From Microbacterium sp. Root61 (lineage in GTDB: Bacteria > Actinomycetota > Actinomycetes > Actinomycetales > Microbacteriaceae): a DNA stretch of 64,000 bases. The stretch is taken from contig NZ_LMGU01000001.1 in NCBI RefSeq assembly GCF_001427525.1, forward strand, positions 3,169,713-3,233,712, given 5' to 3'. Positions 30,816-36,504 of the stretch are shown one piece after another. The translations under genes and the position numbers were made by a program. Under the pieces are notes generated by a model. The model was given only the letters and a program-made list of their open reading frames with translations, did no database searches and was not told the DNA's origin. Positions within the stretch are counted from its first letter, which is position 1. Every line of letters starts with the position of its first letter.

Positions 30816-30892
30816 GGCCGCTGCGGCCCTGGTGTCAGCGTTCCGAACTCGGTGTATCAAGGCGGCACTACCGCGCTCTCTGGTGATGTGGA

Positions 30893-30905: not shown

Positions 30906-31580
30906 ATGACCGCGAGAGACCGCGCAGCGCCCCTCGGTGATTCCGGCGAGCCTGCGGACGCGGGGGGCGCCCTCCCCGGCGACCCCGGCGAGCCCACCGC
31001 CGACCTGCCCCGGTGGGAGCGCGCTGCCGCGCTCTTCATCCGTTGGAGGGAGGGGGAGTCGCGGGCGATGGACGAGCTCGTCCGCGTGATGACCCCCGTG
31101 CTGTGGCACGTGGTGCGCGCGTACGGTCTGGACCGCGCCCTCGCCGAAGACGTCGTGCAGACCACCTGGATGACGCTGGTGCGGCGCCACGACTCCATCG
31201 CCGAACCGCTCGCCGTGTCGGGGTGGCTGACGACCTGCGCTCGACGCGAGGCCTGGCGTGTGGGGAAGCTGCACCGTCGCGCCGACCCCACCGAGACCGA
31301 GGACCTCGAGCCGCATCTGCCGAGCACCGAGTCGGCCGAGCACACGGCCACGGTCAGCGACGAATCGCATCGGCTGTGGTCGGCGGTGTCGAAGCTCAAC
31401 GACCGCTGTCAGCGGCTGCTGCGAGTGGTCGCGTTCGACGAACGGCCCGACTACGCACGCATCGCCCAGGACCTCGCGATGCCGATCGGCTCGATCGGGC
31501 CGACCCGGCAGCGCTGCCTGGGCAAACTCCGCGCTCTGATCGAGGGCGACGGATGGGGAGGAGACCACCATGGAGATTGA
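30906..31580 (+). CDS. RNA polymerase sigma factor, ECF-like (sigma-70 family)
   Basis: 224 residues. A disordered Pro/Gly/Asp-rich N-terminus (about 1-35) is followed by sigma region 2 (about 40-120: AAALFIRWREGESRAMDELVRVM, LAEDVVQTTWMTLVRRHDSI, VSGWLTTCARREAWRV). Region 4 (about 155-212) contains LWSAVSKLNDRCQRLLRVVAF, then DYARIAQDLAMPIGSIGPTRQRCLGKLRALI as its helix-turn-helix. It directs RNA polymerase to a specific promoter set. The next gene starts inside its 3' end (11-bp overlap), followed by a subtilase and a TPR-CHAT protein. Its immediate neighbour is therefore the natural candidate to restrain it. See the locus finding. Confidence 0.92.
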   Translation: MTARDRAAPLGDSGEPADAGGALPGDPGEPTADLPRWERAAALFIRWREGESRAMDELVRVMTPVLWHVVRAYGLDRALAEDVVQTTWMTLVRRHDSIAEPLAVSGWLTTCARREAWRVGKLHRRADPTETEDLEPHLPSTESAEHTATVSDESHRLWSAVSKLNDRCQRLLRVVAFDERPDYARIAQDLAMPIGSIGPTRQRCLGKLRALIEGDGWGGDHHGD

Positions 31581-32040
31581 GGACTTCGCCGCCGATGCGG
31601 CGGTCTTCGCGCGATTGCGTGAGACGTGGCGGGAGGTGGATCCGATGCCGGCCGATCTCATAGACCGGATGGTCGCCGCCGTCGCGGTCGAGGACCTCAG
31701 CCGCGAGTACGCGCTGCTGACCCTCGTCGAGGGCGCGCATCTGGCCGCCGTGCGGGGCGAGGCCGATACCGCGACGCTGCAGTTCAGCGACGGCGAGACG
31801 AGCGTGCTCGTCCACGTGACGACGGTCGAGGACGGCTCGCGACGCGTCGACGGCTGGGTGGACGCCCTGCCGCTGGCGATCCGGCTCACCCAGGGCGAGC
31901 GCGAGTGGTCCGCCGACCCGGGGGAGCACGGCCGCTTCGCGTTCGACGCCGTCACGCCGGGCGTCTCGCGCATCCGTCTGGTCGTGCGCGGCTCCGACGG
32001 CGAGATGCACGAGTTCGAGACACCGCAGTTCGAAGTCTGA
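31570..32040 (+). CDS. Small putative sigma-regulator with helical N-terminus and beta-rich C-terminus
   Basis: 156 residues. Two parts can be seen. Residues 1-55 are helical, with FARLRETWREVDPMPADLIDRMVAAVAVEDLSREYALL; the W-x3-DP-x-P-x-DL pattern around residues 20-30 looks like a conserved interaction motif. From about residue 56 the sequence alternates in beta-strand style (TATLQFSDGETSVLVHVTTV ... FAFDAVTPGVSRIRLVV), resembling a small carboxypeptidase-regulatory or Ig-like sandwich. Excellent RBS (GGGGAGGAG) and an 11-bp overlap with the sigma gene. By position it could be an anti-sigma or protease substrate between the sigma factor and the two proteases; this is inference. No membrane helix. 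Confidence 0.75.
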   Translation: MEIEDFAADAAVFARLRETWREVDPMPADLIDRMVAAVAVEDLSREYALLTLVEGAHLAAVRGEADTATLQFSDGETSVLVHVTTVEDGSRRVDGWVDALPLAIRLTQGEREWSADPGEHGRFAFDAVTPGVSRIRLVVRGSDGEMHEFETPQFEV

Positions 32041-32046
32041 CCGGAT

Positions 32047-32068
32047 GCCGCGACCTGGGGGTCGCGGC
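32047..32068 (+). other. Intra-operon hairpin
   Basis: Perfect 9-bp stem GCCGCGACC-TGGG-GGTCGCGGC between the small protein and the subtilase gene, without a T-run. It may partly attenuate or stabilise the mRNA; the subtilase keeps its own RBS (TTGAGGAA) just downstream. Confidence 0.55.
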
Positions 32069-32086
32069 CGACCTTGAGGAACGCCC

Positions 32087-33763
32087 ATGACCGATGCCAC
32101 GCCTCCCACTTCCGACGACGGCCGCGCGCGGCCGCCCCAATGGCGCGAGCGTTTCGACGCGACGCGCGGGCGCGGCATTCCGCTGGATCCGTCGAGCGAG
32201 CCGGTCCGGGGGGTGGATGCCTACCCGACCTCGTATGCGGCCGGGCATCTGCTCATCACGGCGACCGACGGCCGGCTCGAAGAGCTGCTGAAGCGGCTGC
32301 GCGAAGCAGCGGGAGACTTCGGGTGGGGCATCGAGCTGCAGAACCTCGACGGGACGCCGTTGGATGAGGCCGCGGCATCCGCTCGGGCGAAGCGTGCGCG
32401 GGACGCCCTGAACCTGCCGACGATCCACCGGGTCGGGATCTTCCCGCAGCCCAGCCCCGACAAGGATGACCAGCCGGTGCCGCCGATCGACGCCTGGCGC
32501 CTGCTGCAGCGGGTGCGGGCGCGGTACGGCAAAGACGTACAGGGTGTGGGGCTGGACCACCTGATCACCGTCGACCCCTACGGCAGCACCAACCCCTACG
32601 GCTCCACGAACCCGTACGGCTCGACGAACCCGTACGGCTCGACGAATCCCTACGGCTCCACCAATCCGTACGGGAGCACGAACCCGTACGGATCCACGAA
32701 CGCCCCCGGCCCGGGCAGCTACGCCACGGCCGGGATGGGCGGGCACCAGGCCGTGGACTACATCGGCGCGGGGCCGCAGCGCACCGCGGCGATCGTCGAG
32801 GGTGGGCGCCGACCGGTGATCGCGGTGCTCGACACGGGATGCGGCATCCATCCGTGGCTGCCCGAGGGGATCGTCACGCGCAAGCCGCATTTCGACGGCA
32901 ACCCGATCGGGCTGGTCGACGATGTGACGGACCCGGAGCTGCACGGCGACCTGACCGGACCGTTCGACGGCGCCCTCGATCCCTCCGCCGGGCACGGCAC
33001 CTTCATCGCCGGCATCATCCGGCAGGTCGCGCCCGAGGCGGACCTCATCGCGGTGCGGGTCGCCGACAGCATGGGGACGGTGCTGGAGGGCGAGCTGATG
33101 CTCGCCGTGCGCTCGCTCGTGAAGTGGATGGCGGCCACCCCGGAAGAGGGTGGGCGTGCGATCGACGTGATCAACCTGTCGCTCGGCTACTACCACGAGA
33201 CCCCGGACGACGAGCTGTTCGACCATACGCTCGCCGAGCTGCTGGTGGCCGCGCGGCGTCACGGATGCGCCATCGTGTGCTCCGCCGGCAACGACGCCAC
33301 CGACCGGCCGACGTTTCCCGCCGCGTTGTGGGACTGGCCCGGAGCCGACTTCGTCGTCGAGGATCCGGCGGATGCCGCACCGCATGTCGCGGTCGGCGCG
33401 CTGAACCCGAACCGCCGCTCGATGGCGCTGTTCAGCAACGTCGGCGACTGGGTGCATGTCTACGCGCCCGGAGCGTCGCTGCTCAGCACCGCACCGCCCT
33501 TCAACGGGGGCGTGCAGGCCGGTGCGCGCAACGACAGGTACGGTCTGCGGCGCGAGAACATCGACCCGGATGACTTCACCGGCGGCTTCTCGCTCTGGAG
33601 CGGCACTTCATTCGCGGCACCGTTCGTCGCGGGGAGGCTCGCTGCGATCGTCGCCGCCGGACTCATGGACGGAACGGGGGGTGGCACGGCCGAGGATCGG
33701 TCGACGGCTCTGCGGACCGCGGAGGGCACGGTCCTCGAGGAGCTGCCGAACCCCGCAGGCTGA
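32087..33763 (+). CDS. S8 family serine protease (subtilase) with NPYGST tandem repeat
   Basis: 558 residues. Catalytic triad: Asp249 in VIAVLDTGCGIHPW, His303 in AGHGTFIAGII, Ser508 in WSGTSFAAPFVAGRLA; oxyanion Asn402 in VCSAGNDAT. There is no signal peptide or membrane anchor, so it is probably cytoplasmic, unusual for a subtilase. The first 160 residues form a separate N-terminal domain (VGIFPQPSPDKDDQP at its end). Residues 163-204 are DPYGST plus six NPYGST copies, a hinge-like linker just ahead of the protease domain. In the operon it follows the sigma gene and the small protein and precedes the TPR-CHAT protein. A role in a cytoplasmic proteolytic cascade is inferred. Confidence 0.9.
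   Translation: MTDATPPTSDDGRARPPQWRERFDATRGRGIPLDPSSEPVRGVDAYPTSYAAGHLLITATDGRLEELLKRLREAAGDFGWGIELQNLDGTPLDEAAASARAKRARDALNLPTIHRVGIFPQPSPDKDDQPVPPIDAWRLLQRVRARYGKDVQGVGLDHLITVDPYGSTNPYGSTNPYGSTNPYGSTNPYGSTNPYGSTNPYGSTNAPGPGSYATAGMGGHQAVDYIGAGPQRTAAIVEGGRRPVIAVLDTGCGIHPWLPEGIVTRKPHFDGNPIGLVDDVTDPELHGDLTGPFDGALDPSAGHGTFIAGIIRQVAPEADLIAVRVADSMGTVLEGELMLAVRSLVKWMAATPEEGGRAIDVINLSLGYYHETPDDELFDHTLAELLVAARRHGCAIVCSAGNDATDRPTFPAALWDWPGADFVVEDPADAAPHVAVGALNPNRRSMALFSNVGDWVHVYAPGASLLSTAPPFNGGVQAGARNDRYGLRRENIDPDDFTGGFSLWSGTSFAAPFVAGRLAAIVAAGLMDGTGGGTAEDRSTALRTAEGTVLEELPNPAG
32573..32698 (+). repeat. Seven-copy 18-bp coding repeat (hexapeptide [N/D]PYGST)
   Basis: The seven units encode an unvarying hexapeptide except Asp for Asn in the first. 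The codons differ between units: Ser as AGC, TCC or TCG; Asn as AAC or AAT; Pro as CCC or CCG; Gly as GGC, GGG or GGA. Third-position drift with a fixed peptide suggests selection on the protein repeat, not recent slippage. Confidence 0.9.
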
Positions 33764-33793
33764 CTGGCGGATGCGTTCCGCCGCGGGGTACGC

Positions 33794-33799
33794 CATGAT
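33794..33799 (+). promoter_or_regulatory. Candidate -10 element (CATGAT) for the TPR-CHAT gene
   Basis: Ends 6 bases before the GTG at 33806; the 42-bp gap has no ribosome binding site. The protease gene may therefore have its own leaderless promoter inside the operon. Confidence 0.4.
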
Positions 33800-33805
33800 G
33801 AGCCC

Positions 33806-36286
33806 GTGGCGCGGACACCTGGGGAGTTGCACAGTCGTGCCGTCGAGCTGACGATCCACGGCAAGTACGCCCGGGCGCTGCGCGCGTTGGATGAGGCGGC
33901 CGCGCGCGTCGAGGACCCGGACCTGGACGCGCGCATCCTCGGGACGCGCGCCGTGATCCTGCAGCGCACGGGACGTCCGGCGGAGGCGGAAGAGCTGTGC
34001 CGTCGCGCCATGGCGATGCCCGGCATCTCCGCGCACACCGAGGCTGTGCTCAACGGGCAGCTGGGTGCGCTCGCGGTCTACGGCGGTCGGTTGGATGACG
34101 CCGTCCGGCTGCTGACCGCGTCGATCGTCCGCCTCGAGGACGACTCGGTCGCCGCCGCTCGTACGCGGGTGAACCGCAGTCTGGTGAGCCTGCAGCTCGG
34201 GCGCCTGGAGGATGCCACGGCCGACCTCGAAGCCGCGATCACGACGTTCCACGCCCACGGCCTGCCGACCGACGAAGGGCAGGCCCGCCACAACCTCGGC
34301 TACGTCGCCCTCCTGGCCGGCGACCTCGTCGCGGCGCTGCACGAGATGCTCGCTGCACGGCCGTTCGCGGCATCCTCTCCCGTCGCTGCCGCCGTCGGCG
34401 ACGTCGACCGTGCCGAGGTGCTGCGCGATGCCGGCCTGACCACCGAGGCCGAGCGCATCCTGACCCGGGCCGCGACGGTGTTCGGCTCGCACCGGATGCC
34501 GCAGTCGCGGGCCGAGGCCGAGTTCAACCTCGCGCGCTCCAAGCTGATGCACGATCCGGTCGCCGCCGGCCGTCTGGCCGCCGCCGCCGGCCGTCGGTTC
34601 CGCGCCCTCGGGAACGAGACGTGGGCGGCGCGTGCCGACGCGGTCCGGTTGCGCGCACTCCTGTCCGGAGGCGGGCCGGCGAAGGTGGGCGAGCGGGTGC
34701 CCGAGCCCCGCCGCACCCCGACGGCCGCAGAGGTCGAGCTGGTCGCGTCCGACCTGGAGGCCCGCGGGTTCCGCAGCGAGGCGGCCGCGCTCCGGATGTC
34801 GCGGGAGCTGTGGCGTGCACGACACGCGCACGACGGCCCCGCGCGGATGCTCCGCCCACCGTCGACGGCGTCGATGGATGTGCGGCTGCTCGCCCACGAG
34901 GTCCGTGCGGCACGCGCGTCGGCGCGGGGGAGGGACGGCGAGGCCCGTCGTCATGCGGCGGCGGGGCTGGAGACGCTCGGGCGGTGGCAGCGGGACTTCG
35001 GCAGCCTCGACCTGCAGACCTCGATCGGGATGCACGGCAACGGACTGATCTTCGCGGGACTCGCCGCGGCGGTGCGGTCGCGGCGGCCCGACGTGCTGTT
35101 CGAGTGGTCCGAGCGCGCCCGCCACCTCAGCCAGCAGGTGGTGCCGGTGCGGCCGCCGCCCGACCCCGAGCTCGCGGAGGACCTGGCCCAGCTGCGGATG
35201 CTGCGCGCCGACGATCCGACCGGCGCGTGGCTCACCGACCCCCGGGCGGCTGAGCTGCAGCACCGTGCTCGCGAGCGGCAGTGGTCGGCGACGAGCTCGG
35301 TGACCTTCGAGGACCATGTCGGTCTGGAGCAGTTGCGCGCCGGACTGGACGAGGACACGGCGCTGATCGCCTACATCTTCTCCGGCTCGGCGCTGACGGC
35401 GCTGGTGGTCACCCGCTCTCGCGAGGCCGTCATCGACGTCACCCAGTGGCCCGCCGTGCGGCAGGCGCTGCCGGGGCTGCGCGCCGACCTCGACATGTCG
35501 GCGACGGTGCGGACCGGACCGCTGGCCGACGTCGTGCGACGGTCGTTGGACGATCGTCTCGCGCGGCTGTCCTCCGCGCTGCTCGACGAGGCCGTCGCCG
35601 TGGCCGGCGACCGGCGCCTGGTGATCACCGTCCCCGGCATCCTGAACGGGGTGCCGTGGGGGATGCTGCCCGCGATGCACGGACGCACCTTCACCCTCGC
35701 CGTCTCCGCGACCGCGTGGCTGAGCCGCCGCGAGACCGCGCGCGTCGCGCCGACGACGGTGGCTCTCGCCGTCGGTCCGCGGGTCGCCCGTGGAGACGAG
35801 GAAGTGACGGCCGCGGCATCCGCCTGGACGTCTGCGCGGCTGCTGCGCGGCTCGGAGGCGACGGTCGACGCCGTCACGACGCTGGCGGCCGAGGTGGACC
35901 TCCTGCACATCGCCGCCCACGGGCGCCACGCCGCCGACAACGCGCTGTTCTCCGGTCTCGAGCTGGCCGATGGTGCGTTGTTCGGGTACGACATCGATCG
36001 GATGCCGCGGGTCCCGTCGGTCGTCGTGCTGTCGGCGTGCGAGGTCGGGCGCTCCTCGGTGCGCTGGGGGGAGGAGGCGGTCGGGATGACGCGCGTCTGG
36101 CTGCACGCCGGCACCCGGGCCGTCATCGCCACCCCGGTCATCGTCGCGGACGACGTCGCCTGCGAACTGCTGGGGGCGATGCACGAGGGGCTGGCCGTCG
36201 GGCTTCCCCCGGCCGCGGCGTTGGCGGCGGCATCCGCTCTGACCGGACTCGTCTCCCCGTTCCAGACGCACGGCGCGGGCTTCTGA
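33806..36286 (+). CDS. TPR-CHAT protein (caspase-like protease)
   Basis: 826 residues. Residues 1-280 are tetratricopeptide-like helical repeats (AEELCRRAMAMPG, DDAVRLLTASI, RHNLGYVALLAGDLVAALHEM, AEFNLARSKL). A second helical region runs to about 490. The C-terminal CHAT domain (about 510-826) has the caspase-like dyad: His705 in LLHIAAHGRH and Cys745 in VVLSACEVGRS. GVPWGMLPAMHGRTFTLAVSATAWL and GTRAVIATPVIVADDVACELL are typical CHAT landmarks. It would cleave target proteins when its TPR part senses a signal. The dyad is intact, so activity is expected. No signal peptide. It is the last gene of the sigma/subtilase locus and ends near a strong hairpin. Confidence 0.9.
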   Translation: MARTPGELHSRAVELTIHGKYARALRALDEAAARVEDPDLDARILGTRAVILQRTGRPAEAEELCRRAMAMPGISAHTEAVLNGQLGALAVYGGRLDDAVRLLTASIVRLEDDSVAAARTRVNRSLVSLQLGRLEDATADLEAAITTFHAHGLPTDEGQARHNLGYVALLAGDLVAALHEMLAARPFAASSPVAAAVGDVDRAEVLRDAGLTTEAERILTRAATVFGSHRMPQSRAEAEFNLARSKLMHDPVAAGRLAAAAGRRFRALGNETWAARADAVRLRALLSGGGPAKVGERVPEPRRTPTAAEVELVASDLEARGFRSEAAALRMSRELWRARHAHDGPARMLRPPSTASMDVRLLAHEVRAARASARGRDGEARRHAAAGLETLGRWQRDFGSLDLQTSIGMHGNGLIFAGLAAAVRSRRPDVLFEWSERARHLSQQVVPVRPPPDPELAEDLAQLRMLRADDPTGAWLTDPRAAELQHRARERQWSATSSVTFEDHVGLEQLRAGLDEDTALIAYIFSGSALTALVVTRSREAVIDVTQWPAVRQALPGLRADLDMSATVRTGPLADVVRRSLDDRLARLSSALLDEAVAVAGDRRLVITVPGILNGVPWGMLPAMHGRTFTLAVSATAWLSRRETARVAPTTVALAVGPRVARGDEEVTAAASAWTSARLLRGSEATVDAVTTLAAEVDLLHIAAHGRHAADNALFSGLELADGALFGYDIDRMPRVPSVVVLSACEVGRSSVRWGEEAVGMTRVWLHAGTRAVIATPVIVADDVACELLGAMHEGLAVGLPPAAALAAASALTGLVSPFQTHGAGF

Positions 36287-36445
36287 GAATACTTCCGCGC
36301 CGATGTATCAGCAGGTCCGCGGCGGACTCTGGATGCATGGAACAGACGGAACGCATGCGCCCGGCGGGGAGCCGGGCGTACTGGGGGCACAGCGGTTTTC
36401 GGGGGCGTGTGGGGGCACGCAGGTCGCTGTTCGTCGAAGCCAGCG
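36287..36445. other. Intergenic stretch without a gene
   Basis: Follows the CHAT gene. Short open frames are present but lack family features. GGCGGGGAGCC-like GC-rich short repeats occur; nothing definite. Confidence 0.35.
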
Positions 36446-36481
36446 GGGGATGTCGCAGAGACCCAGGTCGGCGACATCCCC
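36446..36481. terminator. Bidirectional terminator hairpin
   Basis: Perfect 11-bp stem GGGGATGTCGC/GCGACATCCCC with a 14-base loop, between the convergent CHAT (+) and LysR-domain (-) genes. Confidence 0.75.
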
Positions 36482-36504
36482 TGTCTTCGGCCCGGAGGCC
36501 TGCT

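Follow-up and report, generated by a model that had tools for sequence, protein, structure and literature searches.

A conserved actinobacterial sigma factor and protease module with a shared promoter motif and a predicted structured RNA, proposed as a CRISPR-independent proteolytic switch

A 64,000-nt stretch of the genome of Microbacterium sp. Root61 (the window; G000:C1:3169713-3233712 of a Microbacterium genome of 4.02 Mb) carries at positions 30906-36286, all on the + strand, the genes for an extracytoplasmic function (ECF) sigma factor, a 156-residue protein, an S8 subtilase, and a TPR-CHAT protease. We find strong support for a conserved module in which a shared promoter motif stands before both the operon and a structured RNA, and in which the subtilase is zymogen-like. 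We propose that this cassette is an ECF54-type proteolytic sigma switch, self-contained and independent of CRISPR, with a small RNA as output, a reading toward which we lean with modest confidence. The association of such a sigma factor with a subtilase and a CHAT protein is already known as the published ECF54 neighborhood, and what is new here is the promoter, the second promoter with its RNA, the architecture of the small protein with its Arg62, the likeness of the subtilase to a pro-subtilase, and the empty sites. An earlier note on this DNA had proposed a proteolytic cascade from these four genes, and its account of the open reading frames is correct (sigma end 31580; small protein 31570-32040; subtilase 32087-33763; TPR-CHAT 33806-36286). 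Absent from that note are both promoters, the prodomain of the subtilase, and an RNA element that lies immediately past its coordinates (36304-36487). Below, G numbers denote genomes (G000 is the source genome) and L numbers denote loci or fetched stretches. The features are as follows, with the basis of each in parentheses.

30853-30878, + strand: predicted sigma-dependent operon promoter, TGTATCA at 30853-30859, 16-nt spacer, CTC at 30876-30878 (motif conservation)
30906-31580, + strand: ECF sigma factor with an ECF54-type neighborhood (Pfam Sigma70_r2, TIGR02937, alignment)
31570-32040, + strand: 156-residue candidate anti-sigma factor (AlphaFold2 (AF2) model with a predicted local distance difference test score (pLDDT) of 85; alignments)
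31753-31755, + strand: codon of Arg62, candidate P1 residue of a putative cleavage site (invariant Arg)
32087-33763, + strand: pro-subtilase (S8), catalytic Asp249/His303/Ser508 (Pfam S8; AF2 mean pLDDT 76.7)
32228-32569, + strand: propeptide-like N-terminal domain of the subtilase, residues 48-161 (alignment to unprocessed pro-subtilisins)
32576-32728, + strand: tandem (NPYGST)n linker from prodomain to catalytic domain (alignment; pLDDT below 50 at 164-226)
33806-36286, + strand: TPR-CHAT protease, TPRs N-terminal, CHAT domain 35567-36232, His705/Cys745 (Pfam; alignment)
36304-36329, + strand: second promoter copy 3′ of the CHAT stop, TGTATCA at 36304-36310, 16-nt spacer, CTC at 36327-36329 (motif conservation)
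36338-36487, + strand: predicted small non-coding RNA with GGGG loops (arm-swap, pair counts, covariance model)

Conservation of the cassette and its promoter motif

The co-conservation on which the earlier note had staked its proposal is borne out: of the 51 loci that the CHAT protein of the window retrieved, 45 keep the four genes in the same order and on the same strand, Nocardioides and Flexivirga among them. The six exceptions are a locus where the sigma and small-protein genes are inverted and lie behind the CHAT gene (L073), three short contigs (L056, L058, and L078), a locus without the small protein by tblastn (L068), and a divergent one (L077). The 11-bp overlap of the sigma and small-protein genes reported in that note is present here and recurs in 26 of the 45 loci that have sigma on the + strand and a small protein found.

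We also surveyed 393 genomes of the class, drawn evenly and covering 122 genera, and 35 genomes of the genus. The family of the 156-residue protein occurs in 87 class genomes and 36 genera, and CHAT in 211 class genomes. CHAT is present in 85 of the 87 family-positive class genomes versus 126 of the 306 others (Fisher p 8.6e-25, phylogeny ignored), and the two family-positive genomes without it, G392 and G431, have weak partial matches inside large open frames. Within the genus, the corresponding counts are 19 of 20 and 4 of 15 (p 3e-5, phylogeny ignored). The one genus genome with the family and without CHAT, G023, is a draft that is 83% complete, and in G003, with CHAT and no family match, a contig end has probably cut through the cassette, because the RNA element described below is present there too.

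GTATCA stands upstream of the sigma gene in 66 of 73 loci, a set in which several loci are one genome counted twice, and it is followed by CTC after 15-17 nt in nearly all rows printed. Beyond the genus we examined class loci, each at most 19.5 kb long, from 40 genomes (G052 and 39 of the 77 that are family-positive), and the motif precedes the operon in 23 of them. It lies within 200 bp upstream of sigma in 10 (L108-L112, L116-L118, L137, and L147), about 400 bp upstream of sigma in two (L136 and L140), and upstream of an operon-leading subtilase gene in 11 (L113-L115, L124, L125, L127, L128, L142-L144, and L146). Across the 51 CHAT-retrieved loci (875,730 bases), exact TGTATCA occurs 70 times near the sigma start or just past CHAT and 9 times elsewhere, and four of these nine off-place sites (L056, L061, L064, and L068) precede the RNA at a greater distance. 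A second copy lies within 100 bp past the CHAT stop, on the same strand, in 38 of the 51. Because the promoter is conserved before the operon across families, the sigma factor probably drives its own operon. Given a promoter at 30853-30878, the plausible sigma starts are the ATG at 30906, as in the earlier note, or the in-frame GTG/ATG at 30888/30897.

The source genome holds four exact motif sites, two of them inside the cassette, whereas a reversed control pattern gives six, and lone sites elsewhere therefore mean little. One of the other two, G000:C1:3406114 (L151), is upstream of an Hsp70-like gene that is divergent from a groES-like gene (both named from sequence), a site also seen in G019; the other, G000:C1:784885 (L148), is upstream of a gene for a protein with repeated peptidoglycan-binding domains. 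We considered a larger regulon that would take in the DnaK/Hsp70-like gene near groES on the strength of the motif in G000 and G019, and this idea is tentative only. The motif at the Hsp70-like gene is absent in the cassette-positive genomes G011 and G013 and in the family-negative genomes G006, G016, and G020.

A predicted RNA behind the second promoter

The second promoter appears to drive a structured RNA that is absent from Rfam, in which 4227 families gave no match at 36304-36487 up to E 5. The element is about 150 nt long and would consist of a long-range stem (36340-36345 with 36427-36432), hairpins, and a terminator hairpin (36443-36484). We collected 45 sequences, of which either 34 (11 left out) or 21 of one architecture were used for exchanging stem arms between loci. 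In the 21 loci, a stem formed from its own arms has -19.8 kcal/mol versus -15.5 kcal/mol with swapped arms, a difference reached in 0 of 20,000 permutations, and in the 34 loci the count is 0 of 5000. For covariation, 8 well-aligned sequences were chosen from the 45, with L030 kept in one column out of register. With the structure specified by hand, which favors itself, 93% of cells pair and 7 pairs change on both sides, as 1 of 500 shuffles also achieves, and the covariation score is reached by 0 of 500 shuffles. The sequences hold 65 GGGG runs versus 33 after shuffling and 1 CCCC run versus 9, and in 21 of 21 the G-runs are less paired than G elsewhere.

A covariance model fits 36334-36487 with 74.4 bits. 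Among 58 genomes searched it has a single match in each of 7, always beside that genome's CHAT match; trained on 8 sequences and applied under strict filtering, it misses most diverged copies. In the Nocardioides loci L061, L062, and L068, a version with three hairpins and GGGGG loops can be made out by eye behind the motif, and similar hairpin versions are present in Flexivirga L063, there upstream of sigma, and in L113. A second, 5′-truncated CHAT gene in L064 (11887-13107, a 406-residue frame) has its own RNA copy behind it, which the model also matches. In Microbacterium we saw no open reading frame conserved behind the second promoter, and a small protein as the target of that promoter was dropped on this ground. 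Since both promoter conservation and covariation bear on it, the RNA as a sigma output is supported, and it is the best-supported of the predicted outputs of the switch.

The same region could instead belong to a stress or developmental sigma operon of an ordinary, autoregulated kind, with the element past CHAT as its 3′ end and a terminator shared with the convergent gene. A terminator is indeed expected between convergent genes, and the terminator was the only helix recovered when the 21 sequences were aligned with MAFFT and folded unaided with RNAalifold, a result that comes about because the long-range arms misalign. In those 38 loci, however, the sigma promoter copy separates the element from the CHAT stop, and the long-range stem that covaries is upstream of the terminator. 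Promoter and structured element also follow CHAT where the cassette sits elsewhere (L059 and L060), and the model match behind the truncated CHAT gene of L064 is likewise at odds with a shared 3′ end. We regard an ordinary operon as quite improbable.

Two known kinds of RNA invite comparison. RNAs of the CsrB/RsmZ type have several hairpins exposing the same short single-stranded motif, a GGA loop that binds CsrA. The RNA here resembles them in its repeated loop motif but shows GGGG, not GGA, and has no Rfam match at the element. The 6C RNA of Actinobacteria (RF01066) is a multi-hairpin RNA with homopolymeric C-rich loops, whereas the loops here are G-rich. RF01066 has no match in the source genome at E 0.001, and the idea that the RNA is a sponge for 6C RNA was dropped; across 34 genomes, 7 had a match, 5 of them over the cut-off. 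In the literature covered, mostly open, we met no linked RNA.

Other genes stand behind copies of the motif in some loci. In L070 (10514-10840), L112 (4920-5234), and L111 near 5455 (Nocardioides-like), the promoter behind CHAT leads not to an RNA but to a protein of 105-109 residues, '...SFRRRLGLSRWRV...GHDFSFLVF', which is similar between loci by eye (in L111 by eye only) and has no Pfam family over the cut-off. A papain-family peptidase (PF00112) follows a motif copy in L078 (1756-2871, 8e-38) and L129 (10031-10738, 0.017, under the cut-off), which suggests that the regulon of some genomes includes a third type of protease. Near the cassette, motif copies are also directly followed by an AAA_16/STAND-type regulator in L143 (7014-9455, 1.9e-21), with a similar-looking open reading frame by eye at L144 16886, and by a protein with a HopA1-family domain match in L124 (5969-6886, 5.2e-13).

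The small protein, the proteases, and the proposed switch

The sigma protein matches Sigma70_r2 (2.6e-8) and has ECF regions 2 and 4 only, with Sigma70_r2 and TIGR02937 covering residues 64-220 of 234 and no C-terminal extension in the alignment. Passages of a review that reports Huang 2015 and Casas-Pastor 2021 describe the ECF54 neighborhood as an ECF sigma factor with a subtilase, a CHAT protein, and a 'carboxypeptidase' protein, and propose proteolytic regulation (PMC8999054). By gene context, and not from an ECF54 profile, our cassette falls under the ECF54 definition, and a subtilase, a CHAT protein, and a carboxypeptidase-like protein are together in 45 of the 51 loci. The name Geodermatophilus, the genus of the published ECF54 member SFT86700.1, does not appear among the best 120 matches listed in either of two related-sigma searches, most of which carry no organism. 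The ECF54 'carboxypeptidase' is probably the 156-residue protein, because a close relative of it (P0050) is named 'Carboxypeptidase regulatory-like domain' in UniRef. That name is used for a non-catalytic beta-sandwich, so the small protein is probably no enzyme.

In the AF2 model, the small protein has a helical hairpin (residues 3-23 and 30-51), a low-confidence linker (46-59), and a beta-sandwich (67-150). Arg62 is kept in 64 of 64 rows and in 41 of 41 class-wide rows, two sets that overlap in the query and a few genomes, while the linker around it is poorly alignable. This two-part architecture with an invariant linker arginine fits a cleaved anti-sigma factor, with Arg62 as the candidate cut site. 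The sigma and small-protein genes also behave as a pair, having moved together in L073 and being adjacent in 39 of 40 class loci (L138 has no sigma match). We infer that the small protein is the anti-sigma factor of the ECF sigma. No Pfam family matches it, and four PDB-chain profile matches at E 0.15-0.6, examined for likeness to Csx30-type or other PDB proteins, are uninformative. The structure comparison barely covered its helical half, so the lack of an anti-sigma match there is meaningless.

Two other roles for the small protein have to be weighed. According to passages of the review, which argues from gene context, ECF54 has no anti-sigma factor and the proteases hold the system off by degrading sigma itself (PMC8999054); the small protein would then be an adaptor or accessory, in keeping with its having no anti-sigma domain recognizable by Pfam or NCBIfam. 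However, the protease count of the review includes the 'carboxypeptidase', and the third neighbor here is a beta-sandwich protein; it also adjoins sigma even where both proteases are missing from the stretch, as an anti-sigma factor would. We judge degradation of sigma itself to be improbable. Alternatively, the small protein may regulate the proteases, its beta-sandwich or TPxFE tail docking on CHAT or the subtilase as an inhibitor or scaffold, with sigma controlled mainly by transcription. In the close family, the T-P-x-F-E of the C-terminal TPxFE[VIL] is nearly invariant, and the family and CHAT go together in 85 of 87 genomes. Class-wide, however, the tail is not maintained (F154 in 9 of 41 rows), and the partner kept at the locus is sigma, not the proteases. 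We consider a protease regulator decidedly improbable.

The catalytic residues of both proteases are conserved. The CHAT protein matches CHAT (1.8e-25) and TPRs in Pfam, and the intact dyad described in the earlier note is upheld, with Cys745 in 47 of 47 aligned rows and His705 in 46 of 47. Class-wide (31 rows), His is present in 28 and Cys in 27, the rest being gaps from partial matches with zero substitutions. The subtilase matches Peptidase_S8 (5.8e-25), and its catalytic residues Asp249, His303, Asn402, and Ser508 are each present in 47 of 47 rows, which agrees with the triad given before. In 33 class-wide rows the counts are Asp 23, His 29, Asn 31, and Ser 26, again with gaps from partial matches and no substitution. 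No transmembrane or signal segment is evident (highest 19-residue hydropathy 1.77), from which a cytoplasmic location, also claimed earlier, would follow. The source genome has a second CHAT protein (1007-residue open frame, G000:C1:372832-373725, L001), which by tblastn is unlike that of the cassette, and L030 (4747-7979) carries two subtilases in tandem.

Unprocessed pro-subtilisins align with the subtilase from residue 52 over 293-313 residues, versus 212-241 for propeptide-less chains in the same list. This alignment strongly supports a propeptide and a zymogen-like protein resembling an unprocessed pro-subtilisin. The earlier suggestion that the N-terminal domain is a sensor is not favored, as the region resembles a subtilisin propeptide. 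All 47 aligned subtilases carry, at the same place between the prodomain and the catalytic domain, homogenized short repeat arrays with a species-specific unit (NPYGST, NPFTKT, HNEPTP, MHDGSP, and others), near-identical within an array, as in concerted evolution. This linker could be a docking array for the CHAT TPRs.

From these features we infer the following switch. At rest, the 156-residue protein would hold the ECF sigma through its N-terminal helices. On reading a trigger, the TPR-CHAT protease would cut it in the flexible linker at or near Arg62, either on its own or by way of the pro-subtilase, which it would first activate through the repeat linker of that protein. The freed sigma would then transcribe its own operon from TGTATCA-N16-CTC, a positive feedback that conservation strongly supports, and would also make the short structured GGGG-loop RNA from the second promoter 3′ of CHAT. 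Part of the CRISPR-independent protease and sigma cascade of the earlier note is supported and survives in this scheme, namely the co-conserved genes, the source genome without a Cas1 match, the sigma and small-protein pair, and the two-part small protein; the sensor role of the subtilase N terminus is less likely.

Several observations weigh against this switch. The published view of ECF54 has no anti-sigma factor, no known anti-sigma family matched the small protein in Pfam, NCBIfam, or the PDB-chain profile search, and its fold match covers only a generic beta-sandwich. Arg62 could be structural, as it stands 3 residues behind the segment of lowest confidence, with the first strand 5 residues further on. 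The motif was not recognized before the operon in 17 of 40 class loci, and 13 of 51 loci lack it in the 100 bp next to the CHAT stop. As for the RNA, further pair types, one of five covariation measures, are unremarkable (129 of 500 shuffles), related sequences inflate the covariation tests, the folding energy is moderately better than shuffled (mean z -1.3), and the covariance-model matches amount to 6 of 20 family-positive genus genomes plus G003. Finally, 11 of 40 class loci lack both CHAT and subtilase by profile in the stretch; two are short contigs, and because the other nine hold sigma and small protein without either protease in a full 19.5 kb, the proteases need not be encoded beside that pair. 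An unlinked CHAT was found elsewhere in 12 of 12 genomes examined that lack a linked one.

In a related group (L121-L123, L130, L135, L136, L138, and L140), the small-protein gene sits in a shared neighborhood and adjoins sigma except in L138. There are no linked proteases apart from a subtilase match in L138, and a neighboring gene, whose product ends in VPSWDEIMFG, is one that we take to be sepH. This group is possibly an older branch of the system.

Mobility, related systems, and meaning

The cassette lies between amidotransferase-like and LysR-like genes in 31 of 51 loci, and in L056 and L058 only the LysR-like side is present. In seven of eight family-negative genus genomes (G004, G006, G009, G015, G016, G018, and G020) the site is empty, with the flanking genes at most about 450 bp apart; the eighth, G007, has no LysR-like match within the flank. 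Six genomes that carry the cassette at another place (G001, G002, G005, G014, G021, and G022) likewise have the flanking genes next to each other. These patterns strongly support gain or loss of the cassette as a unit, and we read it as a horizontally acquired, mobile one.

Patchy presence, empty sites, and changed positions would also suit a strict system of phage defense or abortive infection, where either sigma release or the proteases would kill or arrest the infected cell, and so would the resemblance in working to Csx29/Csx30/CASP-sigma and CalpL/CalpT/CalpS. Against such a system, PADLOC has no model match for the sigma, small, or CHAT proteins at E 0.01 and matches the subtilase only with generic subtilase (3.6e-10) and IetS (8.2e-7) models, neither of the two flanking genes compared is out of the ordinary, the cassette has no killing domain, and an environmental-stress trigger would look the same. 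We think strict defense unlikely.

In type III-E Craspase, as described in passages of PMC10028731, Csx29 (TPR-CHAT) works with Csx30 and CASP-sigma, the inhibitor blocks an ECF sigma until it is cleaved, and sigma motifs lie inside the system's own locus. Our cassette shares with it a TPR-CHAT protein with an intact His-Cys dyad, an ECF sigma, sigma motifs in its own locus, and a candidate inhibitor. It differs in having a second protease and an RNA, in a CHAT protein without a PDB-chain match by phmmer, and in having no Cas gene among the four and no Cas1 match in the source genome, Cas7-11 itself not having been searched for; one of 21 genus genomes had Cas1. In CalpL/CalpT/CalpS, according to parts of PMC11417357, a Lon-SAVED protease activated by cyclic oligoadenylate cuts an anti-sigma factor and frees an ECF sigma. 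A protease-cut anti-sigma that frees an ECF sigma is proposed here as well, but no Lon or SAVED domain is among the Pfam matches of the four proteins. The SAVED-CHAT/PCaspase/PC-sigma cascade of type III-B CRISPR has two serial proteases with a sigma and an inhibitor; its CHAT is fused to SAVED, and its second protease is a caspase. Two proteases and a sigma are common to both, whereas the second protease here is a subtilase. Of the features described above, the small-protein architecture, the promoter, the RNA, and the pro-subtilase are absent from the passages of the ECF54 review (PMC8999054), and the main text of PMC7159879 contains neither 'CHAT' nor 'sigma factor'.

A bolder version of the proposed switch is an alarm of the caspase type, free of CRISPR, mobile, and widespread in Actinobacteria, in which a TPR-CHAT and pro-subtilase cascade acts on a small anti-sigma and the dedicated sigma output is a new class of GGGG-loop RNA that titrates an RNA-binding partner or feeds back on TPR-CHAT. 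We offer this tentatively, as something that may well prove wrong. Under the more modest proposal, ECF54, known by gene context in the literature covered, gains a concrete mechanism, with an anti-sigma candidate, one residue to probe by mutation, a promoter and a zymogen, and with the RNA as readout. The RNA would serve as a simple reporter for finding the trigger. If the proposal is true, the output of the module includes an RNA outside Rfam, and protease-released sigma control of the Craspase and Calp kind would be a module common among actinobacteria (87 of 393 class genomes have the family) and not a CRISPR accessory.

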